DNA of 64,000 nucleotides, taken from IMG/VR virus record IMGVR_UViG_3300020473_000023, positions 1-64,000 of that record; one strand, written 5' to 3'. The position numbers and the translations under genes were made by a program. The first letter of the stretch is position 1, and each line of letters opens with the position of its first letter. Under the pieces are notes generated by a model. It worked only from the letters and a program-made list of their open reading frames with translations. It was not told the origin of the DNA and made no database searches. The DNA comes from a virus. This document shows positions 1-56,505 of the stretch, in pieces.

Positions 1-274
1 CCTGCGATGATCTCTGAAGGGAGTATAGGGTCACAGCGTTTCCGTACTTTTCCCTACCGATCGTCGGGCCCCTGTGTCCCAGGGTGTCACGAATGTAATT
101 AAAAAAGTCCTCGTCCTGATTCTTGATTGTTCTCATCAGGACGACTCTTCGAGTGCCATCCTCACTTAGAAGCTGAATGTCGTGCCGGATGGCTTCGCGC
201 ATCAGCTCCTTTCTTCGAATCAGCTCCTCCTCCTCTCGAATGATTTGCATAAGCTTTCTTCTACTAATTTTCAA
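1..274 (-). CDS. Helix-tagged protein, N-terminal part (runs off left edge)
   Basis: The reading frame is open from a TTG start at 274 to the window edge, so only about 91 N-terminal residues are visible. A good ribosome binding site (GGAGAAGGG) sits just upstream of the TTG. The protein begins KISRRKLMQIIREEEEL, one of the clearest copies of the basic amphipathic N-terminal helix shared by many proteins in this window. The rest is charged and helical with no domain I recognise. The real C-terminus is outside the window. Confidence 0.75.
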   Translation of the reverse strand, partial: MKISRRKLMQIIREEEELIRRKELMREAIRHDIQLLSEDGTRRVVLMRTIKNQDEDFFNYIRDTLGHRGPTIGREKYGNAVTLYSLQRSSQ

Positions 275-316
275 GGCCCTTCTCCTCGCACAAAGATAGA
301 TAACATAGACTAATTA

Positions 317-556
317 TTACACACCTGGGCTACTTACCACCTCAAATTGCCAATAGGGAGAGTTAAACTTCATAAGAACGCCGCCAACCAGGACAGTTCG
401 CGTAACTAGAAATGCGGCGGTAGGATCATCTGCCGCTCCGATCAGCGTTTCCTGCGTCTCAATGAACAGCCCAATGTGCTCCTCGGAGACTGGTGAGTGT
501 TCGGGACGCCGAACGCGAACTAGGTCTCCGGCCTTAGCTCTCTTATAGTCTTTCAT
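317..556 (-). CDS. Small SH3/KOW-like protein (GDLV family)
   Basis: A 79-residue protein if translation starts at the ATG at 556. A longer frame back to 676 would overlap the upstream gene by 79 bases and adds unrelated sequence, so the short start is preferred. The core reads AGDLVRVRRP, then HIGLFIETQ, then a VLVGGVLMKF strand pair and a final WQFEVVS. This is the pattern of a small five-stranded barrel seen in many small genes here: a GD[LV]V start, a central hydrophobic G[LI]I strand, and a last strand ending in EV or VI. The function is unknown. A nucleic-acid or protein-binding adaptor is only an inference from the fold-like pattern. Confidence 0.65.
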   Translation of the reverse strand: MKDYKRAKAGDLVRVRRPEHSPVSEEHIGLFIETQETLIGAADDPTAAFLVTRTVLVGGVLMKFNSPYWQFEVVSSPGV

Positions 557-597
557 GTCTCTTTTTCGTAGCCGAACCTCGGCTAATTCTATTCCCC

Positions 598-1413
598 TCA
601 ACCACCGTGATGGGATTCTCCTGAGATCATATCCTCTAGATGATCGAAGATTGCCGCCCGTGTTGACTTGGGGCACGTTGATCCACTCATCCGCATAAGA
701 CTTTCAATGGCCATGTCAATTAGATCTGGATTTGCCTGAAGAAACATTCGAACCTTGTCATAGCTTTCGGAGTGAGGAGCATCTCTCGTCTCATCTTCTC
801 CACCTAGCCCCATCATTCCTGCCTGGCGGCCTAGTCCCATTGCCTCTTCAGGTGAAAGGTCAGAAAGGTCGCCTGTATAGTCAAAAACCTCTCTCTCATC
901 GTGACCGCTAGCATACCCTGCACCAAAAGCTTCTTCCGGAGACATCATATCTTCTTCTGGAGGTTCAACCATCGACATTATCTGATCCTTCATGTCACAT
1001 CTATTGCATGTTCCGCATCCACAGCCGTGTCCTTCTCTAATAAGCTTAGCTGCTTCTTGAATCACCATTGTTCTTAAATTCATATTTCTTTCCTCATTAT
1101 TTTCTAAATCAGCTTCGCAGGCAGCATAGCCAACTCCTGCTGCCTCACCAGGCGTTAGAGAGTCGGGATCGTGAGACCATGATATTGAATCATGTGGGCC
1201 TGCGTTGCTCTCTTGTGTTTCAAAGTATGCGTGATCAAGGTTGTCCTCAATGTTATCCCCTCCAGCCCAGGCATCTTCTCTTGGTACAACTTCCGCAGGA
1301 TGAAATGCATCTGTTACATCCCTAGGTTCCACTTCAATTGGTAGCGGGGAGATTAAAACAAGCCCAATCTCTTCCTGAATAATTCTTTTCAATCTTTCTC
1401 TAGTCACAGTCAT
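598..1413 (-). CDS. Acidic helix-tagged protein with PEEAxGxGY repeats and a Cys cluster
   Basis: A 271-residue acidic protein opening with TRERLKRIIQEEIGLVL, a variant of the shared N-terminal helix. Inside is REDAWAGGDN, which recurs in the protein at 20733-21398. Three diverged copies of a motif like SPEEAFGAGY follow, at about residues 86, 158 and 186. The same motif occurs in the SET-domain protein at 18766-19188. Around residue 130 a CGCGTCNRC cluster could bind zinc or a metal. No catalytic domain is recognised. A modular virion or delivered protein is possible but is inference. The ATG at 1413 follows a weak ribosome site and an AT-rich upstream element. Confidence 0.7.
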   Translation of the reverse strand: MTVTRERLKRIIQEEIGLVLISPLPIEVEPRDVTDAFHPAEVVPREDAWAGGDNIEDNLDHAYFETQESNAGPHDSISWSHDPDSLTPGEAAGVGYAACEADLENNEERNMNLRTMVIQEAAKLIREGHGCGCGTCNRCDMKDQIMSMVEPPEEDMMSPEEAFGAGYASGHDEREVFDYTGDLSDLSPEEAMGLGRQAGMMGLGGEDETRDAPHSESYDKVRMFLQANPDLIDMAIESLMRMSGSTCPKSTRAAIFDHLEDMISGESHHGG

Positions 1414-1436
1414 GATATATTCTCTATCACAAATAA

Positions 1437-7262: not shown

Positions 7263-7424
7263 TCACACAGATCCTTTGTATGCCTCTCTCAAAAGCTTTC
7301 TAATTAGCAACCTGGTCTTTTCAGACTCTGAAAGCTTTGGCTTCTCAATTTTTTCTTTTGATCCGGGATCTTTTAAAGCTTCGCTAATTAAAATCTCTCT
7401 CAGCTGTCTTCTGGAAATTTTCAT
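7263..7424 (-). CDS. 53-residue helix-tagged peptide
   Basis: A complete small gene with an ATG at 7424 after GAGGAAG. The peptide begins MKISRRQLREILISEALK, an almost canonical copy of the shared N-terminal helix. It ends with a second similar helix (RLLIRKLLREAYKG). Apart from these two helices there is only a short charged linker, so this gene is essentially tag alone. A role independent of any enzyme domain, such as scaffold or decoy, is possible but unproven. Confidence 0.75.
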   Translation of the reverse strand: MKISRRQLREILISEALKDPGSKEKIEKPKLSESEKTRLLIRKLLREAYKGSV

Positions 7425-7475: not shown

Positions 7476-7727
7476 CTAGACTTCTTCTTCAGATTCGTCT
7501 AAAAGCCCAAGAGACTTAAGATAGTCTGATATCTGCCTATTCACAGGAACATCACTATATGCACTTCGGGAAGGACCTTCAGGCCAGCCGCCGTGTGACG
7601 TATCCCTGTCTAGAAACAGATTGCTGTCAGTTGCGGTGACATACCGCTGGTCGGGATAAGAGCCACCTGTGGACTTTTTAAGCCGCTCCCTTATGATGGT
7701 GCGAAGTTGTGTCTCGCTAATCTTCAT
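7476..7727 (-). CDS. Helix-tagged small protein
   Basis: An 83-residue protein starting MKISETQLRTIIRERLKK followed by a polar, Gly/Ser/Asp-rich segment with no recognisable domain and an acidic end (DESEEEV). It sits two bases downstream of the large 609-residue gene and is probably translated with it. Confidence 0.65.
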   Translation of the reverse strand: MKISETQLRTIIRERLKKSTGGSYPDQRYVTATDSNLFLDRDTSHGGWPEGPSRSAYSDVPVNRQISDYLKSLGLLDESEEEV

Positions 7728-7729: not shown

Positions 7730-9559
7730 TTACTTTAAGAGGTCAGCAAGACTAACATTTCCATCCAGGTAGGAGGCTGCTCCTCGCACCCTGTGTCTCA
7801 CGACCGACTCGTTCATGCTGAGCCCAGTTGCTGTGGCAGTGCCAGCTCCTAAAGCTGCGGTACCCCTTCCATATTTAGGTACACGTCTACCACCAGATCC
7901 GGCAGGAGCTGCACCGCCTGCGGGTGCTGGAGCGCTGCCGCCACCAGTTGGAGCTGGAGCTGTCCCCCCAGACGAACCACCAGAAGCTCGAGAGCCACCG
8001 CTTGCAGGAGCAGCAGCAGTTCCGCCGCCTCCGGCTGGTGCAGCAGCTCTACCCGTGTCTGTGGCTGTTCGACCAGTAGCAGTTACACCTGCCGGAGCTG
8101 GAACTGCAGTTCCAGCTGCTGTCAGCTCTGTTCTTGCCGTTCCGATCACAGCGAGATCATCCACAGAATTCTTAAGTTGCTGTCCCCCGGCAGCGAGAAC
8201 AAAATCATCTGAGAGGTTTTGAATTGGGACCATAGTTCCTCTTCCACCTGCCAGCCCTGTATTTACTGTTCCAAGACGTCTGACAAACTCACCGTCCGGC
8301 CCACTGGTCATTCTAAAACTTCGACCAACCTGGCCAACGCCTTCTGGTCCGCGTCGACCGACTTTGGCAATTACGGCAAATGTCTGCGTAGTTCCATCAT
8401 CAGCTGTCTGAGTAACGAACTTTCTAATTCCAAATCCTGACGGATTGGTGAGTGTGACTGTCCTTCCTGCAGCATTTTTAACTGTGAGCTCTGTCATTTC
8501 AGTCGCAGCTTTTCCGACAACCTGAGAGTTCATAGCCTTAAGTGTGGCTCCTTCTGCCCTGGCGATCCTAGTCGCAACCACAGCTACATCATCCGTCGCG
8601 CTAACACCGAACTTAGAAAGGTTTCTAACACTCTGTCTAGAGATAATGGTGTTAATTGCAGTAGAGGCTCTCTGAACCGCAAGACCGAGCATTCTTCTAA
8701 CTGCGTCAATTCCCCTCTGAAGAGCAGTGGCCATCTTACTCATCATGGTTGGCGCTCCACCCTTTGCTTGGATTCTAGCCGCGTATTGACCTGCCTTGTC
8801 AACTGGGAGGGCTTTCCACATCTTCATCACCCATTCCCAAACAGTTCCTCCGGGCTTGAACTGCTTGGTAAGGGGAGTGATCACTTCGACAACTTTCTGG
8901 CCGATCTTCTTAATCGGGCCCCATCTCATGATTCTTGCAACTGCCTTTCCTGCAAGACCCTTAGCTTTATTTACTTCCTTCCCTAGCCAGAAGATGGGGC
9001 CGGCTGTTAGGCCAAGGGCATCACCAACAGCTGGAATTGCCATAACCATAAATACAGCTGACATGAGAAGTTCAAAGTTGCTAGTAGACTTAAGAAACAT
9101 GTCAAGAGAGTTGACAATATCTATAACAGCTCCGGAGCCTGGGGCAACTAAGTCCGCGCCCATTCCCACAAAAGGTATGATCAGGTTGATCCACTTATTT
9201 TCAACACCAAAGACACCTTGTGCCCTGATCGGCTCCATTCCCTGGGAAGCTGCAGCATCGACATCAGCATCAGTGGGCGGAGTAACTGCAACAGCCTGTT
9301 CTCTTAGAAGCTTTTCAAGATTAGGAAACTCAGATTCAAAAAGCATATCAGCTTCTTCATTAAGCCTCTCAATCTCCAGCTTTATCTCAGAAAGTCTCGT
9401 AAAAGAAGTTCCAAAGTTATCTTTGTAGTATTTATCTAGATGCTCACGAATGGTATCACGGGCCACAAGCTCTAGAGAAACTCTTCTTCTTGCCTCAGCC
9501 TGGACAAGTGTTTTGGTAACCTCATAGGATATTATTGCTCGAGGAGATGTAAGTTGCAT
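7730..9559 (-). CDS. Large hydrophobic/low-complexity protein, possible virion protein
   Basis: A 609-residue protein. Residues 1-100 are helical and charged. Residues 120-210 hold several hydrophobic segments (LIIPFVGMGADLVAPG, MVMAIPAVGDALGL), which resemble the glycine-rich hydrophobic stretches before toxin domains in secreted effectors. The middle is basic and helical. Residues 480-570 are an Ala/Gly/Pro/Ser low-complexity linker. The end carries SMNESVVRHRVRGAASYL, a weak copy of the ESLLR-type tag. No catalytic motif is seen. A virion protein or an effector delivered with the genome are both possible. An AT-rich TATATTTATAA element lies about 36 bases upstream of the start. Confidence 0.6.
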   Translation of the reverse strand: MQLTSPRAIISYEVTKTLVQAEARRRVSLELVARDTIREHLDKYYKDNFGTSFTRLSEIKLEIERLNEEADMLFESEFPNLEKLLREQAVAVTPPTDADVDAAASQGMEPIRAQGVFGVENKWINLIIPFVGMGADLVAPGSGAVIDIVNSLDMFLKSTSNFELLMSAVFMVMAIPAVGDALGLTAGPIFWLGKEVNKAKGLAGKAVARIMRWGPIKKIGQKVVEVITPLTKQFKPGGTVWEWVMKMWKALPVDKAGQYAARIQAKGGAPTMMSKMATALQRGIDAVRRMLGLAVQRASTAINTIISRQSVRNLSKFGVSATDDVAVVATRIARAEGATLKAMNSQVVGKAATEMTELTVKNAAGRTVTLTNPSGFGIRKFVTQTADDGTTQTFAVIAKVGRRGPEGVGQVGRSFRMTSGPDGEFVRRLGTVNTGLAGGRGTMVPIQNLSDDFVLAAGGQQLKNSVDDLAVIGTARTELTAAGTAVPAPAGVTATGRTATDTGRAAAPAGGGGTAAAPASGGSRASGGSSGGTAPAPTGGGSAPAPAGGAAPAGSGGRRVPKYGRGTAALGAGTATATGLSMNESVVRHRVRGAASYLDGNVSLADLLK

Positions 9560-18765: not shown

Positions 18766-19188
18766 TTAAGTGCACCAACTTTCTTCAGGTTGTTCAAGAT
18801 CAGGTTGTTCTCTATAGTCAACTGTAATCTCTGTGCCGACAGGAAGGTCCCTGAGTGTATGCAATCTTCTAACGTTTCCGTCCATCACATTTGCACAATT
18901 CGGTTCCTCAGAGTGATTGTGGTATCTTCCGAGCTCGGTGACATCCCACCCACTCTCCGGCCTTCTGACGTGGCAGACACCAATCTCCTCTCCCTGTCTA
19001 AAATCTCTATCTGTAAATGCACCCATTCCCTGGATATCAGACTGTTGTATCACAAAATCTTTTCCAGTATTGTAGCCGAGACCGTAAGCCTCCTCGGGCC
19101 CCATGTCATCCAGATCACTGGGAGCAAGATGCATCTCAAGCTCTTCCCTAATGATTCTTCTTAGATCGGACCCTTTAATACGCATCAA
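18766..19188 (-). CDS. Helix-tagged SET-domain protein (putative protein methyltransferase)
   Basis: A 140-residue protein. Residues 3-20 are the shared tag (RIKGSDLRRIIREELEMHL). Residues 29-41 hold the PEEAYGLGY motif seen in the protein at 598-1413. From residue 45 a compact SET domain follows: SDIQGMGAFTDRDFRQGEEIG, the NHSEEPN motif at 91-97 and the final GTEITVDY at 118-125. In the family the NHS and DY elements bind S-adenosylmethionine and form the active site that methylates lysines. The post-SET region is short (ending ESWCT). The substrate is unknown. Its gene starts overlapped with the double-tagged protein upstream. Confidence 0.8.
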   Translation of the reverse strand: MMRIKGSDLRRIIREELEMHLAPSDLDDMGPEEAYGLGYNTGKDFVIQQSDIQGMGAFTDRDFRQGEEIGVCHVRRPESGWDVTELGRYHNHSEEPNCANVMDGNVRRLHTLRDLPVGTEITVDYREQPDLEQPEESWCT

Positions 19189-20249
19189 ACTCTCATTCGA
19201 GGAGGTAGAACTTCCATCTCAGATGCATAGTCTTCTGGTTGAACTCCAGCCCTCCAAGCATCGATGGGCATTCCATGCAACGCACTATTTCCGATCTGAT
19301 ACAGATTGCTATCATCTCCCGGGGTTGCTGTGGGCAAGCCTTTCGCTACAAGGACCTGGTTGGCCCAATCTAGAAATCTTGCCTGGACCCTACCCTGCAT
19401 CGCCCGCGCCTCGAAATCATCAAACATAGCCTGTTCAGATTCAAGGTCTGATGCCTCGCAGAGAAGTGTACCTGCCATCTTGTTCCAGCGACCCAGATCT
19501 ATACGGGATTCAGATAACTGGCTCAAATCCACATGTCCAGGAGGTAAGCCTCGAAGCTTTTCATCCAGGTCCATGTAACCTGTCGTACCCCCGGGCGGTC
19601 CGAGACCTTGTGCTTCTAGTGCAACCATCGAGAGCATGCTAGCCATCTGTTCTGGATCGTGAGTGTCACGTTCGAAATCGACGAGCAGTTTATTGTATGC
19701 TTTCTCAAAGTGGCCATAGTTATCAGGTGTGGCGAGATCTGACCTATATGCTTTAAGCTTATTCCAGGCTGCTCTCTGTCTCGGTCGCCAGTGGGCGGGA
19801 GGCTTGCTGGGTAAGATGTTCGCACTTGGATCCCCTCCATGTTGGGCATACGGGTCTCCATGGTATACTTCAGAAAGACTTGAAAACTCTTCCTTAATCA
19901 TTCTCTTTAGGTCTGCTTTATTTATCTTCATCTCTCTCATTCCTACCATATTTTGTGGGACTGTGAAGTCTCCGCTGTCAACCTTAGCTCTTATCTCATC
20001 CAGTGCGCTGTCAACATATGATTCAAATGTCGGCTTATCAACATTCATAGTCTGATACTGTTGAGTTGTCTCCCACTCTGTAGTTAGCCCCTTCCAGTGG
20101 TTGATCTCCCCCATTGCAGATCTGACGATGGCATTTCTCATGAACGGCCCAGTGTCCTCAAGAGACATCTGAGTCCTGGGCGCTGGACCTGACTGAGCCT
20201 GAAATTGCTCTCTAATGATCTTCCTAAGCTGGCTGATCGTGATTTTCAT
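19185..20249 (-). CDS. Double helix-tagged protein, unknown function
   Basis: About 354 residues from the ATG at 20249, which overlaps the upstream stop as TAATG. It carries two copies of the shared helix: MKITISQLRKIIREQFQAQ at the start and MKINKADLKRMIKEEF near residue 108. This looks like two tagged modules fused in one frame. The rest is polar and helical (WRPRQRAAWNKLKAYRSDL, LDWANQVLVAKGLP) with no catalytic motif. Confidence 0.65.
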   Translation of the reverse strand: MKITISQLRKIIREQFQAQSGPAPRTQMSLEDTGPFMRNAIVRSAMGEINHWKGLTTEWETTQQYQTMNVDKPTFESYVDSALDEIRAKVDSGDFTVPQNMVGMREMKINKADLKRMIKEEFSSLSEVYHGDPYAQHGGDPSANILPSKPPAHWRPRQRAAWNKLKAYRSDLATPDNYGHFEKAYNKLLVDFERDTHDPEQMASMLSMVALEAQGLGPPGGTTGYMDLDEKLRGLPPGHVDLSQLSESRIDLGRWNKMAGTLLCEASDLESEQAMFDDFEARAMQGRVQARFLDWANQVLVAKGLPTATPGDDSNLYQIGNSALHGMPIDAWRAGVQPEDYASEMEVLPPRMRV

Positions 20250-20736: not shown

Positions 20737-21398
20737 GGCCTAATCTTCTCATAGTGCTGACGGCGAAGATCTTCGTATGTGAAGTCGTCGGAACCGTGTT
20801 GCATAGGAGCTGTCTCTGTCGGAAAGTCTTCCATCCCAAGCTCCGCGTCCATAGGATCATCGTATGGGTCTTGCTCGAAAGCTAGCATATCTGGCATGCC
20901 GACTGTCTTAGAAAGCTGATCAACTGCCTCAACACCGAGGTCTGCGTCTCCAGCAAGAAGCCCCCAAATTACCTGCTCATCACCGATCCTCTGTCTAAGA
21001 GAGTTGAGAGCATCAAGTGTATCAACATCCTGAGGTGATGAAAACCTGGGCATCGGCTCACCGACTTCGGAGATCATTCTCATCTCTCTGTTAATCATTG
21101 CACGAAGCTCTGTGATCGACATGATCTCCTGCTCTGCTGTAACTGCCTCTGATCCGCCTGCCTTGGAGTGGTCTATGGCATTAAAGACATTATCACCGCC
21201 GGCCCAGGCATCTTCACGTGCCTTGACGTCTGCAGCGGGCCCGCCTTTAAAATACGCACCGTCACCGTAGTTAGGCTCTTTCTTTTTTGCCTCTACGAGA
21301 ATCCCGTCACCCCTGGCAGATTCTTCATAGTTGCCCTGAGTAATATTCTCAATAAAGTGTCTTGTCATATCTCTAAGGCTAAACTTGTCTTCGCTCAT
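20733..21398 (-). CDS. Helix-tagged acidic protein sharing the REDAWAGGDN motif
   Basis: About 221 residues from ATG at 21398, which has AGGAGA upstream. A longer frame to 21551 has no ribosome site and is rejected. The N-terminus (MSEDKFSLRDMTRHFIENIT) differs from the tag. REDAWAGGDNVFNAIDH occurs near residue 60, as in the protein at 598-1413. A tag-like SITELRAMINREMRMISEVG follows near residue 91, so the first 90 residues look like a leader module. An AATATTTATTTG element lies about 20 bases upstream. Function is unknown. Confidence 0.6.
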   Translation of the reverse strand: MSEDKFSLRDMTRHFIENITQGNYEESARGDGILVEAKKKEPNYGDGAYFKGGPAADVKAREDAWAGGDNVFNAIDHSKAGGSEAVTAEQEIMSITELRAMINREMRMISEVGEPMPRFSSPQDVDTLDALNSLRQRIGDEQVIWGLLAGDADLGVEAVDQLSKTVGMPDMLAFEQDPYDDPMDAELGMEDFPTETAPMQHGSDDFTYEDLRRQHYEKIRP

Positions 21399-24525: not shown

Positions 24526-24545
24526 TTTTCCCTCTCTATTGAAGA

Positions 24546-33974: not shown

Positions 33975-34826
33975 TCACAGGTTTTGTAGAATCCAATCTT
34001 CTGCAGTTGCTGACAGCGGACCCTGTATGAATCTATTTATCTTCTGAATATCCTCAGAAGTAACTGCCGTCCCTCTCGGCTTTGTATTATCAATCTCGAC
34101 AAACCGATCCTCACCAAACGCTGCCATGTACTCTGGAATTAGTGATGGGGTGGGCGGAGCTTCAGGCTTGTCTGGATTGATTCCCCCAAACAGTCTCCAG
34201 CATGTTCTTTCAACAGCAATATCGGCAAGCCCTCTTCCGGGTGGGTCAGCAAGGCCCCTCTCTCTATTCCTTCTGACCGACTCTTCTCTTGGAACATTGA
34301 CTGCAATCATCATTGTTTCATATCCCAGCTTTTCTAAAATAGCCTTCTGCTCGAGTGTCTTGTTTAGAGACGCAGCTGTTCCATCGATTATAAGGCCGAG
34401 CCTTCCGTCTACGTAGAATTCTTGAGAGCTTTTCTTTGACAAGCTTCTTCCGGGCTTCAAGCCAAATTCTTCGGGGTCGAGACCCTGCCTCTCAGGTGTG
34501 ACTCCATGCCATCCGGTAATGTTCTTTCTAGCCCTTGCTCCGAGCTTACCGGCTGCTGACTGCTGATCACTGGTAAAGTCCTGCTGATATCCCATCAGGC
34601 CGCTTGCTGTCAAATATCTATCAAGGGCATCATCTTGATTAACAATCTTCATACTGTTGGCTGCTAGAGTTGGAACATTGTTCAATACAAAGCCTATGAC
34701 AGATCCCTTTCCAGACCCTGGACATCCCGCCATGAAGATTGCCTTAAATATCCCTTCATCTCTTGGGCCCTCTCTCAGGAGCTCTTCTCTGATAATTCTT
34801 CTAAGCTGCCTGCGTGAGATCTTCAT
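33975..34826 (-). CDS. Helix-tagged P-loop kinase (zeta-toxin/AAA_33-like)
   Basis: A 283-residue protein beginning MKISRRQLRRIIREELLREG, the most canonical copy of the tag. FKAIFMAGCPGSGKGSVIGF follows, with Walker A near residue 33. KIVNQDDALDRYL matches the substrate-Asp region of zeta-toxin-like kinases. LGLIIDGTAAS is the Walker B strand, and VPREESVRRNRERGL forms the arginine-rich lid. The family phosphorylates small molecules or UDP-sugars. The substrate here is not known. An AATATTTATAG element is just upstream. Confidence 0.75.
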   Translation of the reverse strand: MKISRRQLRRIIREELLREGPRDEGIFKAIFMAGCPGSGKGSVIGFVLNNVPTLAANSMKIVNQDDALDRYLTASGLMGYQQDFTSDQQSAAGKLGARARKNITGWHGVTPERQGLDPEEFGLKPGRSLSKKSSQEFYVDGRLGLIIDGTAASLNKTLEQKAILEKLGYETMMIAVNVPREESVRRNRERGLADPPGRGLADIAVERTCWRLFGGINPDKPEAPPTPSLIPEYMAAFGEDRFVEIDNTKPRGTAVTSEDIQKINRFIQGPLSATAEDWILQNL

Positions 34827-35933: not shown

Positions 35934-36466
35934 GCTATCGTGAACTTGGGCATCGTGAGAGATTTACCTGTTGGGAGCCTTGGATCCCAATTCCACTCTG
36001 CATAAGTCGCTGGATCTCCTAGATCTTCTAGATAATCTTCTTTGCCGGTCCCTTCAATTTCTAGACCATCATCCATTACGGTGGCACTGGCAACAGCGAA
36101 TCCATCGTCATCACGAGAAAATGATAATTGAACTGTGAACGATCCACTGACGTCGTCACGGTTTAATTTTGAAGAGTAATCTCTCCAAGTATTCGAGATG
36201 CTCTTGTTGATATCATCGGCGCGGACGAGCTCGTCGACATCATCTTCTTCTTCTTCTTCGTCGTCGTCTTCGTCTTCGTCTTCGTCTTCGTCTTGGTCGT
36301 CTTCTTCTTCTTCGTCTTCTTCGTCTTCATCATCAGCGTCGTCTTCGTCTTCTTCGTCCTCGTCTTCGTCGTCGCCCAGGGCATCAGCTCCCGGGGAGGC
36401 TTCAAGAATTAAGCTAATAAGCTCGTCCCTGACGATCTTTCTAAATTCACTAAGTCTTAATCTCAT
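35930..36466 (-). CDS. Helix-tagged protein with Asp/Glu run
   Basis: A 178-residue protein. RLRLSEFRKIVRDELISLILE is the tag. Residues about 28-78 are almost uninterrupted Asp and Glu, coded by GA(C/A/T) triplets that form a trinucleotide repeat at about 36240-36380. A structured C-terminal domain follows (GSFTVQLSFSRDDDGFAVASATVMDD). Acidic runs of this kind occur in DNA-mimic and histone-binding proteins. The exact number of repeat units is prone to sequencing error. Function is unknown. Confidence 0.65.
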   Translation of the reverse strand: MRLRLSEFRKIVRDELISLILEASPGADALGDDEDEDEEDEDDADDEDEEDEEEEDDQDEDEDEDEDDDEEEEEDDVDELVRADDINKSISNTWRDYSSKLNRDDVSGSFTVQLSFSRDDDGFAVASATVMDDGLEIEGTGKEDYLEDLGDPATYAEWNWDPRLPTGKSLTMPKFTIA

Positions 36467-42673: not shown

Positions 42674-43282
42674 CTATTTAAACCCGATTCCAAGTCCCGC
42701 AACAGCAACCTGTCCAGGCTTGCTGTGTTGAGGCTTATTATCACCGTACATCCAGTTTCTTGTAGTGTATAGGCCGCCGTCACCCATTTCTTCAACTATG
42801 CTACCAATCTCTTTTCTAATGGCATCTCTAAGTTGATTTTCTTCCTGCAACCTCTTGCTTGACAAGTTGTTTCGCTTAGCTCGCTCTTTCTTCATTCTAG
42901 AAATCTCTCTTCGAAGCATAGACTCATTAATCTCAACCATCTCTTCCATCGGGCCGCCAAGCTCTTCATCGGTGATGGCGTCATAGTCCTGCTCCTCAAC
43001 TGGGGCGAGCGAATCGAGGGCTTCCGCGTCTTCATCACTCATCGTCATCTCATCACCGCCTCCTGGAGGATCATCAAGTTCTCCCATGGCGAATGGGTTG
43101 TTATCTTCATCGCCGCCCTCTGGAGGCTCGTCAAGCTCATTCAGGTCTCCTGAATACCAATCAACTCCCTCATCATGGCCCTCATCATGTCGGCTTTGAT
43201 TTCCTGACTCATTTAGTGATCTTCTGTCTGAAGAAGTAGAAATTCCAGCAAGCTTTGCTAGTCTATTGGCATTGAAACGCAT
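42674..43282 (-). CDS. Acidic phage protein with internal NESMLRREI motif
   Basis: A 202-residue protein. It starts RFNANRLAKLAGISTS, then an acidic Gly/Asp/Pro-rich middle (ELDDPPGGGDE type), then EINESMLRREISRMKKERA, which is an internal copy of the ESLLR-type tag. It ends with a Gly/Val segment. An AAATATTTAATTC element precedes the AGGAG site. A virion or scaffold role is inference. Confidence 0.6.
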   Translation of the reverse strand: MRFNANRLAKLAGISTSSDRRSLNESGNQSRHDEGHDEGVDWYSGDLNELDEPPEGGDEDNNPFAMGELDDPPGGGDEMTMSDEDAEALDSLAPVEEQDYDAITDEELGGPMEEMVEINESMLRREISRMKKERAKRNNLSSKRLQEENQLRDAIRKEIGSIVEEMGDGGLYTTRNWMYGDNKPQHSKPGQVAVAGLGIGFK

Positions 43283-43781: not shown

Positions 43782-44951
43782 CTATAAAGCCGGCTCTGCT
43801 TCAAGGGGTCGAATTTGCTGCAGTGTTTCTTCATAGATTGGCTTTATTGCTACTAGGATTGCCTCTTGGACTTCGGGTGAATCAGAGGAAGTCTCGCTTA
43901 CAATTCTATCAAGAGACCCCCCGATAACACCAGAAAAAATATCTGGAATTAAAACCCTTATTTGAGAAAATAAATCCTCAGACCCTGCCTGAATATCTTC
44001 GACAGTAACGTTTTCTCCAGTAATCTTTTTCACTCTTTGAGCAAGGACTTGCGGGGTAAAAGACCCTGATTCTCCGGGTTTTCCCATAAGAGAAGAAAGG
44101 CTTATAGCAAGTGAATTTAAATCTTGAGAAGACATGGCATCACGATACATTACCAATAGATTGTCCATGTCTAATCTGGCAGAATTTGACAATTCAGAAA
44201 CTACTTCTGGAACCTGTGACACATCAATCTGTGGCAGCACTTCTTGAGCTGGGTCAGGAAGTTCACCCAATCCATCATCAGGCTCTTGAAGGTCATCAAT
44301 CTCTGGATCAACCTCAACGACTTCAGGATCTATTTGACTCTGATCAATGGGCTCTAGATCGACAAGAGGCTCATCTTCTAAGGGTGTAGCCAAGATAGTT
44401 TCTTGTGCCTCTTCCTCTTCCTCTGCAGCCGCCTCAATCGCATCGTCAACTATTTTATCTGCCTCTGCCTCTTCTCCAGCCCTAGCCTCATCTGCCTCTA
44501 ATAAAAAATCAAGCGACATATTTTCAAGACTGAACGTATCAAGTGAATAGTGAATGCTTTCTGTTGCAAGGCCAGTTGTCTGAAGAATTCCTGGACGCTG
44601 CTGCGTACGCCCGAGAAAACCTCGTGCCTTTCTAAGTGTTGTAGCTTGATTGGTCACGATGCTTTCATAATCCGGAGTCCCACCCCCAAGAAGTCCCTTC
44701 ATCCCTTCAGCACCTATCTTAAATACTGATTCAGCTCCCTTGTAGGCAGCAACACCAGCGTAAGCAAGAGATGAGACAACACCTATGGCATGCCCTATTA
44801 TCTTCTTAACAGAACCTATCCACCCAATAACGTCAGGCATAGTACCCACACCGACAGACTGACCGGCACGTCGGACGTCTCCTCGATCTTTTCGTTCAGC
44901 AATTAAAGACTCTCTAATAAACTGACGGATTAATTTTTCATTTGAGCTCAC
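43782..44951 (-). CDS. Helix-tagged acidic protein
   Basis: About 389 residues from GTG at 44951 (GGGAG upstream), overlapping the upstream gene by 14 bases. The tag is SSNEKLIRQFIRESLIAERK. A hydrophobic stretch follows (IIGHAIGVVSSLAYAGVAAYKG), then a long acidic region (EEEEEAQETILATPLEDEP and a Val/Glu/Asp/Pro-rich part), then a helical C-terminus. No enzyme motif. Confidence 0.6.
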   Translation of the reverse strand: MSSNEKLIRQFIRESLIAERKDRGDVRRAGQSVGVGTMPDVIGWIGSVKKIIGHAIGVVSSLAYAGVAAYKGAESVFKIGAEGMKGLLGGGTPDYESIVTNQATTLRKARGFLGRTQQRPGILQTTGLATESIHYSLDTFSLENMSLDFLLEADEARAGEEAEADKIVDDAIEAAAEEEEEAQETILATPLEDEPLVDLEPIDQSQIDPEVVEVDPEIDDLQEPDDGLGELPDPAQEVLPQIDVSQVPEVVSELSNSARLDMDNLLVMYRDAMSSQDLNSLAISLSSLMGKPGESGSFTPQVLAQRVKKITGENVTVEDIQAGSEDLFSQIRVLIPDIFSGVIGGSLDRIVSETSSDSPEVQEAILVAIKPIYEETLQQIRPLEAEPAL

Positions 44952-45207
44952 CAAACAACTCCCTTCTCTCAGCAAGTGTTCTTAGGACAAGCCTAACACC
45001 TGTTAGATCATGATAATAATTAATCAGCTCCTGCTCAAAATTATTAAGCCACTGCTCCTTTGTCTTAGGGTCTCTGGTGGAAAAATTCTTTCTAAGCCCT
45101 GAGGGTATTCCAAGCATGATCTGCTTCTTAATCATAACCCAGTCATCCATGTCGCCCGCGTAAGATGACACAAATTCAACTTGCTCCCTGATCCTGTCAG
45201 GAATCAT
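44938..45207 (-). CDS. Unknown 89-residue protein
   Basis: A helical protein (IREQVEFVSSYAGDMDDWVM, EQWLNNFEQELINYYHDLTG). No family recognised. It lies between two tagged genes and overlaps both. Confidence 0.5.
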   Translation of the reverse strand: MIPDRIREQVEFVSSYAGDMDDWVMIKKQIMLGIPSGLRKNFSTRDPKTKEQWLNNFEQELINYYHDLTGVRLVLRTLAERRELFGELK

Positions 45208-46679
45208 CTATTCATTCCCAGCAAGAGCATCTCTCTGACGAACTCTCTTAGGAGCGATTCCCGAATCTTATCATACATGACAAATCCACTTTCTTGCCCT
45301 TGGGGCGACATCTGAACATCTCCAATTGTAATATCTTCCTTGTTAACAGCCCTAGCTGGATCAAGCATAACAGCAGCTTTTGCCCTATCTGCTATCACGA
45401 TTTGAAATCTAAGGCCCATTATCGGCTTGACGGGAGATGATTCCGAGTCTCCAGCGGGAGGTGAAAGATATTTCTTAGGCCTTCCTGCAGAACCGGTTAT
45501 AATTACTGTAGGTTTCTCATTTGGAGAGAGGTCATCAATAGAAGAGTAGACAGATCCAGGTATAGTGAGTGTTTTTGTGGATGGGTCCCATTCTCCTACG
45601 GGCTCATCGGCGTAATAGTCTCCTTTAAGGACAAGGTCTGCTCTATTTTCTCCAGACCCAAAGACAGCATGCTCCATAAACTCAGGACCCAAATACTCAT
45701 CTGGAACTGTAAAGTTGGTTCTAATCTGTTGACCATCCTTTTCAACAACCATCTTAGAGCCCGCTTGATTTGGACCTGCTCCAACTATCTTTGCTATTCC
45801 CCCACCGTCAACCTCGACTCCAGAACCTTCCAGGGCCTGAAGGAGCGGGCTTAGCAGGGGAAAGGACATGTCCGCAGAGAGCCAGTGACCAGCATTTATC
45901 ATTTTCATGCTGACACCTATCTCACTCTCACCTCCGTTGTACACAATGTCGACATCACTCTTTGAGGTAACTCCGCCCTTCTTTTCTGTTCCGGCAGCCT
46001 TGGCGCTAATAACTCCCTTAAGTGACGTATTATTCTTGCCTTTCCGATCCAGAAAGACAACAGTTAAAGGATAATCTCGACCGAGATCCGACTCATACGG
46101 GGGAAGCCCTTGCACAGCAAGATTTATGTCATCAGTGACTCTTTCTTCGCTTATAATCCCTAGAGACTTCGAGCCTCCTGCCCCTTGGACCTTAAATGCA
46201 AGTTTTTGATGAGGTGTAATGTCATCTTTCCCTGTCTTTGTAAACTGGCCAAGAGATTTAACAAACTCAATTGGACCAAGGCCCTGTGGGCCTTGCATGA
46301 CCTGAACTTTTATTCCTTGATTTTTCACCATTTTCTGGAGAGCCTGAGCCCCTGACTCTCTCTGCTCCTGGTCTTTTCCAGAAATTAGTGAGAGGTTCTC
46401 AAGAAATGTAATTATCTCTCGATTGTGTGGATCATCTTTGAGAATTATACCTTGAATAAATTCTTCTGGATAAAGATCTCCGTCAATGGAAGCTTCTTTG
46501 CGAACGCTAATTGTAAAGTAGTCGCCTGTTCGGATCTTCTCCAGCATTATTAAAAATCTATCAGGCCTACCGGCACTGCTCTTTGGCTTTGATAGCTCTC
46601 CAGCAGTCAGCCCGACCCGATTGGCTTCTAGAAAAAGCTCTCTTATGTACTGTCTAAGAAGTGACTCAGAAATCATCAT
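45204..46679 (-). CDS. Protein tagged at both ends
   Basis: A 491-residue protein. It begins SESLLRQYIRELFLEANRVG and ends YDKIRESLLREFVREMLLLG, so both termini carry the ESLLR-type helix. The body is alpha/beta with glycine-rich turns (IISEERVTDDINLAVQGLPP, SKSDVDIVYNGGESEIGVSMK, the last recalling a DxD nucleotidyltransferase or nuclease strand). No enzyme can be named. The GTATAC repeats at about 46688-46707 form an inverted pair upstream. Confidence 0.6.
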   Translation of the reverse strand: MMISESLLRQYIRELFLEANRVGLTAGELSKPKSSAGRPDRFLIMLEKIRTGDYFTISVRKEASIDGDLYPEEFIQGIILKDDPHNREIITFLENLSLISGKDQEQRESGAQALQKMVKNQGIKVQVMQGPQGLGPIEFVKSLGQFTKTGKDDITPHQKLAFKVQGAGGSKSLGIISEERVTDDINLAVQGLPPYESDLGRDYPLTVVFLDRKGKNNTSLKGVISAKAAGTEKKGGVTSKSDVDIVYNGGESEIGVSMKMINAGHWLSADMSFPLLSPLLQALEGSGVEVDGGGIAKIVGAGPNQAGSKMVVEKDGQQIRTNFTVPDEYLGPEFMEHAVFGSGENRADLVLKGDYYADEPVGEWDPSTKTLTIPGSVYSSIDDLSPNEKPTVIITGSAGRPKKYLSPPAGDSESSPVKPIMGLRFQIVIADRAKAAVMLDPARAVNKEDITIGDVQMSPQGQESGFVMYDKIRESLLREFVREMLLLGMNR

Positions 46680-49668: not shown

Positions 49669-50367
49669 CTAATTTCTCATCAGCTGCTTCAGCCGAGATC
49701 TAACTTCTGAAAGGTCTTGGCCGGCGCCCGCTTTAATTGGTGGAGATGTATCTTCTTCTCCCGGGGCAGGCTCTTCTTCTCTCCGATCTTCTTCGGGCTC
49801 TTCTTCAGATCCATCTGATTCTCCGCTAGATACATCAATAGAGGCTGGGGGTTCGGAGGGATCCTGGGCTTCTGTTCCTGAAACTTGACTTCGCATGAGT
49901 TGGTCAACTGTAGCTAGATATCCGAGAAGAAGCTCTTTCTCACTATCATCTAGTCGGTCAAGCCACGCTTCCATGTCCTGCTTTACTTCCTTTCCTTTGA
50001 GAGAGGGTGCAGCTCGAATATCATTAATCTGATCTCTGATCTTGTAATATGTTACGTCTGGAGATGTTTCAATCTGTTCTTCCTCGTCGCCTGCGGGCTC
50101 GGGTTCTCCCCCTTCTTCATCTCCTTCAGGCTCGGAGAGATCTGAGCCTTCTTCGTCAGCGGGAGGGTCTTCCCCTTCATCTTCTTCACCCGCTTCCTCT
50201 TCTTCCTGCTCTGATATCTCTCCGTACTTTCTAAGATCGTCTTGGATTCTTTTTGACATCGCCTCTTGGCGCTGTTTGAGAACACCCTCCCTGCCTTCGC
50301 TCTCTTCTTGAAGAATTGTTAAGAAACTCTCAAGTTGAGATGCATTCCCTATTCTAAAGATGCTCAC
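49669..50367 (-). CDS. Acidic low-complexity protein
   Basis: A 232-residue protein. It starts FRIGNASQLESFLTILQEES, then two acidic Glu/Asp/Pro/Gly-rich regions (residues about 53-100 and 180-215) around a folded middle (YYKIRDQINDIRAAP, MEAWLDRLDDSEKELLLGYL). The end SEVRSRLKQLMRN is a weak tag-like helix. A virion or scaffold-type role is possible (inference). Confidence 0.55.
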   Translation of the reverse strand: MSIFRIGNASQLESFLTILQEESEGREGVLKQRQEAMSKRIQDDLRKYGEISEQEEEEAGEEDEGEDPPADEEGSDLSEPEGDEEGGEPEPAGDEEEQIETSPDVTYYKIRDQINDIRAAPSLKGKEVKQDMEAWLDRLDDSEKELLLGYLATVDQLMRSQVSGTEAQDPSEPPASIDVSSGESDGSEEEPEEDRREEEPAPGEEDTSPPIKAGAGQDLSEVRSRLKQLMRN

Positions 50368-50923: not shown

Positions 50924-51348
50924 AGCTGATCCTCACCTTGCTGGTCGGAAATATAAAAGTCTTGAATATCTCTGTATAAATTGTCACAAAAGCCAGCCAG
51001 CTCTTTATCCAGCTCTGTAACCTCATTAACATTATGTGTATAAGTTTCAATCTTAACATCGCTACCTTCGATAATAATTCTGGCATGATGTCCCATTTCC
51101 TCTTGCTCAAAGATTAAGTGTGTCACAAAATCTTTTACCATTCTAGGATCGTTAAAGGAAAACACCCGAGTTAATCTTTCAACCTCGCCGTCGCTTACAA
51201 CCATCCACTCAGACCTGCTAACAGCAACAGGAAGCTCTCCGATCACACCGGGAGAAAGATTTCCTAAAATTGAATCTATTCCTTTCATTTTCATATCACT
51301 CTCCTCCTGCAAGATTGACCTTCCAACAACTTCTAAGAGTGACTGCAT
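50920..51348 (-). CDS. Pterin-4a-carbinolamine dehydratase-like protein
   Basis: A 142-residue protein. After a helical start (MQSLLEVVGRSILQEESDMK) the second half reads FSFNDPRMVKDFVTHLIFEQEEMGHHARIIIEGSDVKIETYTHNVNEVTELDKELAGF. This has the FxFxD strand, the EMGHH pair of histidines, the THNVNEVTxLD loop and the final ELA helix of the PCD/DCoH family. The family dehydrates 4a-hydroxytetrahydrobiopterin and also serves as a transcription cofactor. Its role in the phage is unknown. Confidence 0.7.
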   Translation of the reverse strand: MQSLLEVVGRSILQEESDMKMKGIDSILGNLSPGVIGELPVAVSRSEWMVVSDGEVERLTRVFSFNDPRMVKDFVTHLIFEQEEMGHHARIIIEGSDVKIETYTHNVNEVTELDKELAGFCDNLYRDIQDFYISDQQGEDQL

Positions 51349-51373: not shown

Positions 51374-53068
51374 TCAAACTTCCGGATTACTTAAAGCTTT
51401 TTGAATGGAATTCTTAACCTTGGCTGGTTCCTCAATCCTTTGAGCGTACTGTTGAGCAAGCGCGGTAGAATTAGCTGGATCAGCCGACCAAGCTCGAGCT
51501 CTTTCTAGTGCTTGTGAGAATTGAATCGGTGTCATTCCAGCTGCAATCTTTGCCTTAGCAGATTTTGAATTTGGACTAGTCTCTCCAATTAGCATCTTTG
51601 CAAATACTTGCTTGGGGTCTTGAATTCCCATTTCTGAGAGTATGACTCCCGCCTGTACCTTCCACGCCTTTAAGAAATCATTGACAAAGGGTTGAAAGAA
51701 TATTAGTTTAAAGTAAGTCCTAAAGTGATCGCCCGACATCTCAGGAGCTATTCTTGATGACCTAACAATCTGATTGACCTGATTTCTATCAACTCCCAAA
51801 CTAAAAGATCTCATTCCTCGCTTAAACGTTTGAAGAGCTCTTCCTTTAATTGTTTCCATGACGTCAGGAGGAATTGCCATACTTTCAAGATAATACTTAA
51901 TCATCGGCTTAAAGGCAAACTGTCTAGCACCTGCTGCTGATGCAAACCCCTCTTCCTTTGCTATTTGCGTCCAGAGATCTGATAGATCTTTTGGTGCAGC
52001 AACGACTTCTTCTTCCTCTGCAGCATCTTGAGCTCGAAGGGCTTGAATTTCCCTTTCTGATTCTCTTCTTGCTCTAAGTTCTTCAGCTGCACCCGATTTA
52101 GATAAGATCATCTGTGCCATTTCTTGATATGCATTAATCATATTCTGGTCTGTCTCAGATTCAGATCTTCTAACTAGTTCAGCGGCAACGTCTTCTTGTG
52201 TGGCTGGCGGCGCCATCCACTCACCTGTTTGTGAGTCTTTTTCACCCTTGAGCATCCTAAGAGCTATCTGATCAACAGCTTTATTTGCATCAAGCTGCTC
52301 TTGACTCCAGTCAGTGGGAGGGGGCTCTGACTGTACCGGTGTCACGGACTTCATAACAGCCTGTGTCACTCCGTGCCTAACCATATCAATTTGATCTGGT
52401 GTAAGATTGTATCTGCTAAAAATTTGAGAAACCGCAGGATCAACATCGGCAGGACCTATCTTTTGACGGAGCTGGATTTGCATCATATCGGGTGACTGAG
52501 GCCTTTGTCCGGTTCCTCCTAGAACTTTTCCGACTGTTGTGTATCCAAAGTTTATGGATCTTAAATGGTCTAATACACCTTGAATAGCATCTTCAACAGA
52601 GGGAGCATCATCCTGCTCTGCAAGAAGCCTACGAATTGACTCTCTTATCTGATCTTCGGCTGACTTCTTTTCAAACTTTTCTAAATCAGGGCTATAGTCT
52701 ATAAGCCTTACACCGCTGCTCCCGTCAAGATCTCCTCGAAGTCTGGCTTCCTCTCTATCTAGTGCCTTATCAAGAAGCTTATGAAGCTGCCTATAGTAGT
52801 ACTCAATCTGGTGAGAAGGAACTTCTCTTGCAATAACAGAGGCTGAATTTCCAAGCTCAACTGATGAAGCGGGGATAAATTCTGGGTCTTCAACCGGTGG
52901 TTCGTCAACAGAAAGCTGAACTGCCATCTGCTCTCTTGGGACTATTGGTTCGTCTTCATCGTCTTTGGCAGGAATTTCAGAAATATTTGCAGTATGAAAA
53001 CTTCTTTCTTCATTAACCATTGACTTAATAAAGTCTTCTAGAGCCCTTCTATCAATAATTACATTCAT
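51374..53068 (-). CDS. Large helical protein with internal tag-like helix
   Basis: A 564-residue mostly helical protein with no enzyme motif. The start (MNVIIDRRALEDFIKSMVNEE) is tag-like, and residues about 136-149 read DQIRESIRRLLAEQ, another tag-like copy. Many Glu/Arg-rich helices follow. CATATTTATCC lies about 25 bases upstream. A virion, tape-measure-independent structural or ejected protein is plausible but unproven. Confidence 0.55.
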   Translation of the reverse strand: MNVIIDRRALEDFIKSMVNEERSFHTANISEIPAKDDEDEPIVPREQMAVQLSVDEPPVEDPEFIPASSVELGNSASVIAREVPSHQIEYYYRQLHKLLDKALDREEARLRGDLDGSSGVRLIDYSPDLEKFEKKSAEDQIRESIRRLLAEQDDAPSVEDAIQGVLDHLRSINFGYTTVGKVLGGTGQRPQSPDMMQIQLRQKIGPADVDPAVSQIFSRYNLTPDQIDMVRHGVTQAVMKSVTPVQSEPPPTDWSQEQLDANKAVDQIALRMLKGEKDSQTGEWMAPPATQEDVAAELVRRSESETDQNMINAYQEMAQMILSKSGAAEELRARRESEREIQALRAQDAAEEEEVVAAPKDLSDLWTQIAKEEGFASAAGARQFAFKPMIKYYLESMAIPPDVMETIKGRALQTFKRGMRSFSLGVDRNQVNQIVRSSRIAPEMSGDHFRTYFKLIFFQPFVNDFLKAWKVQAGVILSEMGIQDPKQVFAKMLIGETSPNSKSAKAKIAAGMTPIQFSQALERARAWSADPANSTALAQQYAQRIEEPAKVKNSIQKALSNPEV

Positions 53069-54569: not shown

Positions 54570-54857
54570 CTACTCCGAAGACAGAGGGTTGTCTGTCTCA
54601 ATCACACTAAATATTGACTCTGCATCAGTGTCAGAAAGCCTTCCAATTGCCTTATCTCTCTTCTTTTTTTGAATTTCTTCAAGTATGTCAATCATATCTG
54701 GATTTGCCACTGCAATTCTTTGAACTATCTCTTCAAGAACCTCTTGCATTGAAAGGCTATGCTTAAAGCATGCAATTCTAAAATGCGAATGGGTCTCTCG
54801 CAACAGGGAAAAGTGAACTGACTTCTTTGTTTCAAAATCAATAAGCTTATCATTCAT
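54570..54857 (-). CDS. Ribbon-helix-helix-like small protein
   Basis: A 95-residue protein. KKSVHFSLLRETHSHFRIACFKHSLSMQEVLEEIVQRI has the strand-helix-helix pattern of RHH proteins (VxFSL strand, then two helices), with an acidic/variable tail. DNA or partner binding is inferred. Confidence 0.5.
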   Translation of the reverse strand: MNDKLIDFETKKSVHFSLLRETHSHFRIACFKHSLSMQEVLEEIVQRIAVANPDMIDILEEIQKKKRDKAIGRLSDTDAESIFSVIETDNPLSSE

Positions 54858-54866
54858 CTCAAGTCA

Positions 54867-55475
54867 CTAGTCTCCGCCAGTAGCGGGCAAGCCTTCAGGG
54901 TCACCAATAGCACCGATTCCTGGCTCTCTCCCACCAGCAAGTGCAGAAGCAGGTTCTCTAATAGGGGCTATATTGAAATCAAAGTTTGTATCTAGAATAT
55001 TTTTAAATTCATCTATATAACCTTGGTCATAATTTTCGTCTAAGAAGTTAATAGCTCTATTTATTATAACAGTAGGGATATCTAGTCTAGCTCGGTATCC
55101 CAAGGCTAGTTGGGCAACTTTTTTAGTAAAAGAGTCAATATTCATTGCAGGACGCTTGGCAGGCTCTACAGGAGCAGATACATCGATATCTTCGCTTCCG
55201 ACGGGATCTTCAACTCCTGGGTCTTCCGGGGCTAGATTTTCATCTTGCTCAAATAGAAATGCTGATAGATTAAGATTGCTCAATGACTCAGTGACAAGAT
55301 CATCTGAGCTGACTATTGAACTAGCCTCGAAGTCAATCATGTGTGAGTCAATTTGATCGTCAACTGAATCCATAGACAGCCTGACTTTTGTCGAAGCATC
55401 TGCCATTGAAACAGGTTGATTTTCTTCATCCTGCTCTAGGATCATCTTCCTAAGATCATTAATTGAAATTTTCAT
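54867..55475 (-). CDS. Helix-tagged protein, unknown function
   Basis: A 202-residue protein starting MKISINDLRKMILEQDEEN, a clear tag. An acidic Asp/Glu/Pro-rich linker follows (residues about 75-100), then a folded segment (FTKKVAQLALGYRARLDIP, VIINRAINFLDENYDQGYI) and a Gly/Pro-rich end. It overlaps the SOD gene's stop by four bases. No enzyme motif. Confidence 0.6.
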   Translation of the reverse strand: MKISINDLRKMILEQDEENQPVSMADASTKVRLSMDSVDDQIDSHMIDFEASSIVSSDDLVTESLSNLNLSAFLFEQDENLAPEDPGVEDPVGSEDIDVSAPVEPAKRPAMNIDSFTKKVAQLALGYRARLDIPTVIINRAINFLDENYDQGYIDEFKNILDTNFDFNIAPIREPASALAGGREPGIGAIGDPEGLPATGGD

Positions 55476-56203
55476 GAGAACCTCAGTGCTTGTGCAATCT
55501 TTTCTGCTCTTTCAAACCTTGACTCAATTACAGGCCAGTTGAGCTGTTTCATCATTCCATAGGTATATGTCTTAGCATCCTTAAGATAATCTCTATAATA
55601 TGCATGCTGCCAAACGTCCATCACTATAATCGGATATCCGCCAAATGGAACATTTAGACTGTGAAGGTCAACAATAGTATTGACATACCTTTGCAAGTAT
55701 GTATTAAAATAGGTCACAGCCCAGCCGCAGCGAGATGCCATACAGCAAGCTATAAAATCTTTTTGCCAGGCATCGAACGTTCCAAAGTCACGCTCCAGCC
55801 TCATATATGCCAAAGAGTCCATTCCGATTTGACTGTGTAGATCGCTAATATTTGCAAAATAAAGCTCATGCAAATAAATGGCATTCATGTTATATGTTTC
55901 ATCAATCTTAAGTGCTCTGTACTGAGAATGATTTGAGCTTACCTCTTCTCTATTTGCTGAGTCCAGCTGAGCACTGATTTTATTGAAATCATCAATGTAT
56001 TGCTCGTAAAGCTCAAGATGGTTTGTCTTATTTTGCTTACTTAAAAGCTCAGTGGGCAAATTAAACACCTTGTCTTGAGCGACATATGCTTCTTTGACTA
56101 AATTATTTCCCGGAATATCAGTCTCAGCATCAGTAGTGGGTTCTTCTTTATCAATTCCCAGGGTTTCTCTTATGTTCTTAATGATTTCTTCTTCTGTGAT
56201 CAT
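55472..56203 (-). CDS. Fe/Mn superoxide dismutase
   Basis: A 243-residue protein. After a short helical start (ITEEEIIKNIRETLG, a weak tag) and a polar linker, the SOD fold begins at about residue 45. Candidate metal ligands are visible: His in KTNHLELYEQY, His in AIYLHELYFAN, and Asp and His in VMDVWQHAYYRDYL near residue 196. GTFDAWQKDF and GWAVTYFN are also typical. Some usual residues are changed (EHAYY to QHAYY, no clear Gln/His gatekeeper). It would remove superoxide in the infected cell. Its neighbours are the tagged gene below and an unknown gene above. Confidence 0.8.
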   Translation of the reverse strand: MITEEEIIKNIRETLGIDKEEPTTDAETDIPGNNLVKEAYVAQDKVFNLPTELLSKQNKTNHLELYEQYIDDFNKISAQLDSANREEVSSNHSQYRALKIDETYNMNAIYLHELYFANISDLHSQIGMDSLAYMRLERDFGTFDAWQKDFIACCMASRCGWAVTYFNTYLQRYVNTIVDLHSLNVPFGGYPIIVMDVWQHAYYRDYLKDAKTYTYGMMKQLNWPVIESRFERAEKIAQALRFS

Positions 56204-56208
56204 TGAAA

Positions 56209-56505
56209 CTACATCCTTTCATATTTAGAAATATCTGATGAAGGTATGGCATAATAGTCACCGTTTTCATCATCTTTAACTATTAAGACAGCCCCATCGG
56301 GTCGATCCAATAGCTTAACACAGGTGTAAGTATATCCTGAGTCTTTGTTTCGTATCTTAAACCCCTTGCTTATTAGGGAGGTTCTATCGTCTCCCACACC
56401 TGCAAATAGGGAAATACCATCCCCTTCGGAGATATCAGAGTCTTTCTTCTTTCTTTCAGACTCTATTATTTTTAAAATATTGCTTTTAGACAAGACAGTT
56501 GTCAC
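56209..56505 (-). CDS. Unknown 98-residue protein
   Basis: GTG start after GGAGAA. TTVLSKSNILKIIESERKKK is followed by a beta-rich part (GISLFAGVGDDRTSLISKGF, YTYTCVKLLDRPDGAVLIVK). The N-terminal helix resembles a weak tag. No function recognised. Confidence 0.5.
   Translation of the reverse strand: MTTVLSKSNILKIIESERKKKDSDISEGDGISLFAGVGDDRTSLISKGFKIRNKDSGYTYTCVKLLDRPDGAVLIVKDDENGDYYAIPSSDISKYERM

Follow-up and report, generated by a model that had tools for sequence, protein, structure and literature searches.

A short helix tag shared by many unrelated proteins of uncultured tailed phages: a putative cleavable capsid-targeting signal

The DNA analysed here, called the window, comprises positions 1 to 64,000 of the IMG/VR virus record IMGVR_UViG_3300020473_000023, which is a 106,284-base fragment of an uncultured marine tailed phage. 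Almost all of the 157 genes called in the record lie on the minus strand; the record encodes GroEL, a UvsX-like recombinase, a single-strand binding protein, a DnaB-like helicase, a ribonucleotide reductase and transfer RNAs. An initial annotation, made from the letters of the window, had described a short helix tag common to about twenty unrelated proteins, and this tag, the subject of the present analysis, proved to be real. Few of the tagged bodies get a name from Pfam and PHROGs.

First attempts to detect the tag with a simple regular expression and an exact DNA pattern were too strict. A profile of 14 columns was built, also in a version trained only on 13 N-terminal copies from the 106-kilobase (kb) record. 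After iteration, the 14-column profile gave 25 matches in the record vs about 0.5 expected from shuffled proteins. When the search was extended to the rest of the genome and other large phages, as the initial annotation had proposed, the 13-copy profile returned 95 matches over seven related records vs 0.6 expected; 76 of these fall in six records outside the training set, and 72 lie within about 10 residues of the N terminus. As controls, T4 (47 kb) gave one chance-level match (regB, 14.3 bits) and the 197 genes of pelagiphage HTVC008M gave none. All 13 N-terminal positions of the initial annotation are starts of open reading frames (ORFs) with the helix; for the SET-domain gene the helix stands and the gene call moves the start from 19188 to 19185. 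Twelve of the 13 copies score well above the shuffled null, these being the same copies that trained the profile, and the copy at 26130 (MDDVLREYIREALLAE) is a shorter, ESLLRxYIREEL-type version under the profile threshold. The internal copies in 598-1413, 7730-9559, 19185-20249, 20733-21398, 42674-43282, 45204-46679 and 51374-53068 are genuine or at least plausible, and the C-terminal ones reported for 22641-23390 and 46716-47525 are weak. To the initial list we add a superoxide dismutase gene with a divergent tag (55472-56203) and three further genes with copies beyond the window, at 72774, 92361 and 94817 of the record. The tag sequence was not found printed in the literature searched.

The tag ends in a recognizable motif. 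T4 gp21, the prohead protease, cuts after L/I-x-E (PMC9026906). Across 153 bodies among the matches listed, conservation of the tag extends through residue 15 and then drops, with a last peak at E22; the consensus is M-K-I-[ST]-x-x-Q-L-R-x-I-I-x-E, and L/I-x-E sits where conservation ends. Two classes can be told apart by residue 15. Among the matches listed, tags with A at this position (IIxE↓A, a T4-like site; ↓ marks the predicted cleavage junction in leader sequences) had a downstream [LIMV]xE in 6 of 31 cases, near the background of 24%, in contrast to 85 of 96 for those with E (IIxE-E). The difference is significant (p = 4e-11, A pooled with other small residues) and persists when K/R-type tags are excluded (E class 43 of 54; A vs E p = 6e-8). 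At the downstream site, P3 is L in 65 of 85 cases and P2 is variable. The tag end carries [LIMV]xE in 89% of cases vs 24% in bodies, whereas [STNQGDKR]xE is not enriched (33% vs 42%). An independent set of 60 new bodies gave a downstream site in 39 of 48 E-class tags vs a background of 16%. Leader lengths range from 14 to 39 residues.

The site is also kept where the leader itself is not. The kinase of the window has the junction LLRE↓GPRDEGIFKAIF; Melnitz-3 has LQE↓G, HTVC008M has LKE↓G, and further loci have LTE↓G, LHE↓G, IGE↓G, LTE↓G, ITE↓S and VTE↓G. The leaders at these nine loci are very unlike in sequence, yet all end [LIV]xE↓[GS] just ahead of the kinase domain. In Agrobacterium phage Atu_ph07 (L026:2245-4581), the Zeta-like kinase follows another domain in one fused protein, the two meeting at VTE↓G, which gives it the look of a head polyprotein. 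The four superoxide dismutase junctions read LVKE↓AYV, ILSE↓SYV, AVNE↓AYV and KINE↓AYV, behind leaders of 28-39 residues. The protein in 45204-46679 has LFLE↓A, and its ortholog in the relative G006 has an unrelated leader ending LLQE↓A. Similarly, the HExxH protein has LIE↓K in the window and MKGLKLLRLVISE↓A (ISE↓A) at the same place in G006. Its AlphaFold model is fair (predicted local distance difference test, pLDDT, 68), with the leader as a low-confidence helix at 3-13 and the body starting at about residue 22; Foldseek with this model found nothing.

A Fe/Mn superoxide dismutase, always with a variable leader, was observed in four of these phages (55472-56203 in the window; L193:9243-9950; L221:2642-3337). 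Its body matches solved superoxide dismutases (1coj, E = 3.6e-31), and its AlphaFold model is poor (pLDDT 44). In the G009 enzyme, a metal-ligand position that usually reads EH or QH has EG; this copy is possibly inactive. Chloroviruses package a Cu/Zn superoxide dismutase (PMC7019647).

A helix on many bodies is also typical of a docking peptide, and on inspection this one is Arg/Lys-rich with an amphipathic pattern. The tag might then direct proteins to a site or machine of the infected cell (a compartment, membrane, chaperone, or messenger RNA or ribosome hub) rather than to the virion, LxE being just the end of the helix. We consider such a role unlikely, since it predicts neither the trade-off between E-A and E-E...LxE, nor the retention of [LIV]xE↓[AGS] through changes in leader sequence and length, nor the match to a prohead protease motif.

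The matching protease was found in the relatives. GroEL as bait found none of them. Tags on orthologous genes are kept in a collinear 84-kb relative and in larger relatives. PF03420 (gp21 family, prohead protease) and PF07068 (gp23 family, capsid) are both present in the four relatives with a head region (G006, G007, G008 and G013), and among the matches listed, every tag-bearing record that reaches 142 kb (14 of 14) has PF03420. In G007, the gp21 homologue lies at 74503-75117 and a scaffold-like protein is encoded at 77675-79165. Neither gp21 nor gp23 was found in the 84-kb relative, which we attribute to truncation because this contig begins just downstream of the position of the capsid gene in the other relatives; the record of the window ends still further downstream. 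The head type was read from the relatives because the record of the window is a fragment in which neither gene is detectable. The gene order in the relatives is terminase-like, portal-like, gp21, small genes, gp22-like and gp23, where names other than gp21 and gp23 were assigned by position and resemblance. Tag-like N termini, e.g., MAKLSRNDLKGIVKECLIEILNEG, occur in two of the small genes that separate gp21 from the gp22-like gene; the T4 core genes 67 and 68 lie in the same neighbourhood, between 20 and 21. The capsid protein of the relatives has [LV]LRE↓[AS] near its N terminus, like FLTE↓A of T4 gp23 and LLRE↓S of gp24, which, with FIAE↓A of IPIII, we take to be the T4 cleavage positions. 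A 194-residue ClpP-like protein at 84774 of the record (L002:1374-1958) matches "head maturation protease" PHROGs and was rejected as the protease of the tag because it adjoins an endolysin and has no match to the gp21 family.

By sequence, the tag has a virus-only distribution. A degenerate DNA pattern matched at least 120 stretches in IMG/VR, with at least 237 tagged ORFs on at least 153 unrelated protein bodies (body clusters) in uncultured viral contigs. Eight relatives of 200-293 kb had 7-27 exact matches each to a looser pattern, which had no match in T4, HTVC008M, Melnitz-3 and Atu_ph07; a reversed control pattern had no match in 26 records. A public phage collection of 50,697 records yielded no tag except a single weak match (E = 6). 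In roughly 85,000 prokaryote genomes, matches to the tag came from just four metagenome-assembled genomes (MAGs). One is a Halobacteriovorax MAG with a tagged phage-like contig, and one matching MAG contig is of the same length (101,404 bases) as a tag-bearing viral record in IMG/VR.

The 201-kb relative G006 has 47 tagged genes, including a 15-kb array of small genes at 146.5-161 kb, the majority of which open with MKITKRQLRRIIKEEKARLLxE. Adjacent tagged pairs are far above chance (24 vs 5.6 expected). In the array tags, codons for the same residue agree in 61% of cases vs 36% expected from codon usage, so that these tags are homologous. This homology and the head-to-tail arrangement would also fit conserved DNA at gene starts that aids recombination of cassettes and has no role in the protein. 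However, identity is 87% at codon positions 1 and 2 and 64% at position 3, which indicates selection on the peptide, and the peptide is kept in tags outside arrays and at internal positions. An explanation by gene shuffling only was rejected on the codon positions and appears the least probable of those considered here, but homologous tags may still lead to shuffling as a by-product. The arrays, in which many small proteins have one leader in common, also look like leader-peptide arrays, and another protease could remove the tag in the maturation or export of small, bacteriocin-like peptides. This seems very improbable, though marginally less so: an export-leader motif such as GG is lacking, the tag has the same motif as the T4-type prohead proteases encoded by these phages, the cargo includes globular enzymes (superoxide dismutase, kinase), and homologous cargo in T4-like phages has short leaders ending LxE↓G.

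The initial annotation had suggested that a T4-like capsid-targeting tag loads enzymes into the virion. This is supported by four tests on sequence: the presence in relatives of a prohead protease and a capsid protein of T4 type, the L/I-x-E protease motif at the end of tag conservation, the trade of one cleavage site against the other between two tag classes, and retention of the site by orthologous cargo when the leader changes. We put the probability that the tag is a capsid-targeting propeptide working like the T4 capsid-targeting sequences (CTSs) at roughly 0.8. Its helix (about residues 3-12) would dock the protein onto the internal core during prohead assembly. The gp21-family prohead protease would then cut after [LI]-x-E, at IIxE if a small residue follows, or at another LxE some seven residues downstream, leaving the cargo free inside the head and presumably to be ejected into the host with the DNA. 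Packaging, cleavage and delivery to the host are what we infer for a cargo of superoxide dismutase, the SET-domain protein, the Zeta-like kinase, the HExxH protein and many small proteins.

Several points weigh against this interpretation. The tag has only the initial MK and the hydrophobic spacing in common with T4 MKTYQEF, and gp21 and gp23 were not detected in the window's own record, a fragment. The gp22-like and core-like genes of the relatives would be such by position and N-terminal resemblance only. The A class of the independent set comprises three cases only (p = 0.11), and the downstream site is followed by varying residues (Q, G, A, S, M). The leaders are related by ancestry, yet the p values count body clusters as independent, and the N-terminal LxE excess across the whole proteome is modest (z 1.7-4.9). 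Finally, a trypsin-like peptidase with a signal peptide (window 9622-10410) has a C-terminal NIRRIIRTAL that resembles the tag; as a secreted protein should not be packaged, this is probably a coincidence or another use.

Among known systems, the CTSs of T4 IPI, IPII, IPIII and Alt are closest, being short N-terminal propeptides on unrelated proteins that end in L/I-x-E for gp21; they are 10-19 residues long, and cleavage of Alt takes place at each end (PMC9026906), as it would in the protein of 45204-46679, tagged at both ends. T4 likewise has two propeptide layouts, comparable to the two classes of the tag (IPIII MKTYQEFIAE↓A; IPI MKTFKEF...TITE↓A; T4 genome sequence). Differences lie in the helix sequence, in the number of tagged proteins (a handful in T4, up to 47 genes, in arrays, in the relatives), in the internal copies between domains and in the cargo enzymes, which do not resemble those of T4. 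None of T4 IPI-IPIII is picked up by the tag profile and T4 has no pattern match, and because there is no sequence homology to the T4 CTS helix we regard the tag as a functional analogue and not a member by descent. Judged from sequence, it represents a much expanded variant of capsid targeting as known from T4, outside the T4 tag family. The initial suggestion of an undescribed cargo system goes too far, the principle being known from T4 (PMC9026906); the tag family, its scale and the gene arrays are new. In phiKZ and SPN3US, many inner-head proteins also have propeptides, which a gp21-like protease cuts off after x-x-E (PMC9026906, PMC5694885); several of these are long (>100 residues in SPN3US), few share sequence, and the phiKZ motif is S/A-x-E, not L/I-x-E. 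The tags do not show the features of such propeptides (an S/A-x-E motif, mostly long). Polyvalent or DarA-type head-packaged defence proteins (P1 and others) are likewise phage-encoded, thought to travel in the head and to act early in the host; we know of no short common tag on them. Encapsulin cargo-loading peptides are also short and load varied enzymes, into an HK97-fold shell, but they are C-terminal, uncleaved and belong to cellular nanocompartments.

The copies in the window are listed in the table. Internal tags with an initial Met that close with [LI]xE or nearly so occur in 19185-20249, 20733-21398 and two G006 genes; they look as if two tagged genes had fused, and the prohead protease would separate the parts.

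Table. Tag copies and leaders in the window (↓, predicted cleavage junction)
Feature	Position	Strand	Gene and basis
N-terminal tag/propeptide MKISRRKLMQIIREEEELIRRKELMRE↓A	194..274	-	gene 1-274, profile
N-terminal tag MTVTRERLKRIIQE↓E	1372..1413	-	gene 598-1413, profile
Internal tag-like segment MNLRTMVIQEAAKLIRE↓G	1033..1110	-	gene 598-1413, by eye, under profile threshold
N-terminal tag MKISRRQLREILISE↓A	7380..7424	-	53-residue gene 7263-7424, profile
Second tag-like segment RLLIRKLLRE↓A	7284..7361	-	gene 7263-7424
N-terminal tag MKISETQLRTIIRE↓R	7686..7727	-	gene 7476-7727, profile
Internal segment LEKLLRE↓Q	9299..9376	-	gene 7730-9559, weak
N-terminal tag MRIKGSDLRRIIRE↓E	19144..19185	-	SET-domain protein 18766-19185, profile
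N-terminal tag MKITISQLRKIIRE↓Q	20208..20249	-	gene 19185-20249, profile
Internal tag with own Met MKINKADLKRMIKEEFSSLSE↓V	19869..19946	-	gene 19185-20249, profile
Internal tag MSITELRAMINREMRMISE↓V	21066..21143	-	gene 20733-21398, iterated profile
N-terminal tag MDDVLREYIREALLAE↓Y	26083..26130	-	gene 25231-26130, under profile threshold
N-terminal tag MSSEKILREYVREILIE↓K	27370..27420	-	HExxH-type protein 26653-27420, profile
N-terminal tag MKISRRQLRRIIREELLRE↓G	34770..34826	-	Zeta-toxin-like P-loop kinase 33975-34826, profile
N-terminal tag MRLRLSEFRKIVRDELISLILE↓A	36401..36466	-	acidic protein 35930-36466, profile
Leader ending SLNE↓S	43208..43282	-	gene 42674-43282; G001 ortholog SLNE↓A
N-terminal tag MSSNEKLIRQFIRESLIAE↓R	44895..44951	-	gene 43782-44951, profile
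N-terminal tag MMISESLLRQYIRELFLE↓A	46626..46679	-	gene 45204-46679, profile
C-terminal tag KIRESLLREFVRE↓M	45231..45308	-	gene 45204-46679, profile
Leader MSIFRIGNASQLESFLTILQE↓E	50305..50367	-	acidic gene 49669-50367; site conserved with G001
Leader MQSLLEVVGRSILQE↓E	51304..51348	-	gene 50920-51348
Leader MNVIIDRRALEDFIKSMVNE↓E	53009..53068	-	gene 51374-53068
Internal segment DQIRESIRRLLAE↓Q	52616..52693	-	gene 51374-53068, iterated profile, weak
N-terminal tag MKISINDLRKMILE↓Q	55434..55475	-	gene 54867-55475, profile
38-residue leader MITEEEIIKNIRETLG...NLVKE↓AYV	56090..56203	-	Fe/Mn superoxide dismutase 55472-56203

A second motif, (E/N)DAWAGG(D/E)(N/D)..DHS, recurs in several otherwise unrelated tagged proteins, after the leader or an internal stretch (window 598-1413 and 20733-21398; G006 160923). 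Three large proteins of 1008, 417 and 1260 residues in L001:11014-19550 have weak family matches or none; the first is weakly like a tail spike, and the other two have 94% identity to their counterparts in the 84-kb relative. Window 24406-24851 and 30139-33909 contain lipoprotein-like genes with a high content of D/S/T/G (SDTGDTGLDTGA). This style, which we presume to be common in Myxococcota or Bdellovibrionota, and the tagged contig in the Halobacteriovorax MAG are a possible hint to the host.

If the tag works as a capsid-targeting propeptide, the tag and its LxE site would provide a sequence search that predicts which virion cargo proteins giant phages inject with their DNA, and would single out many protein families of uncultured phages that probably act as effectors early in infection or against host defence. 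The list of predicted cargo would gain a superoxide dismutase and a SET-domain protein, and the tag would be a modular signal of natural origin by which proteins can be loaded into particles. With the odds about evenly balanced, uncultured marine giant phages may carry a modular effector arsenal, in which dozens of rapidly evolving small proteins and enzymes are gained as tagged gene cassettes in arrays, all loaded into each virion via one standard cleavable tag and delivered at infection; if true, its diversity would be comparable to that of a bacterial secretion-system effector repertoire.

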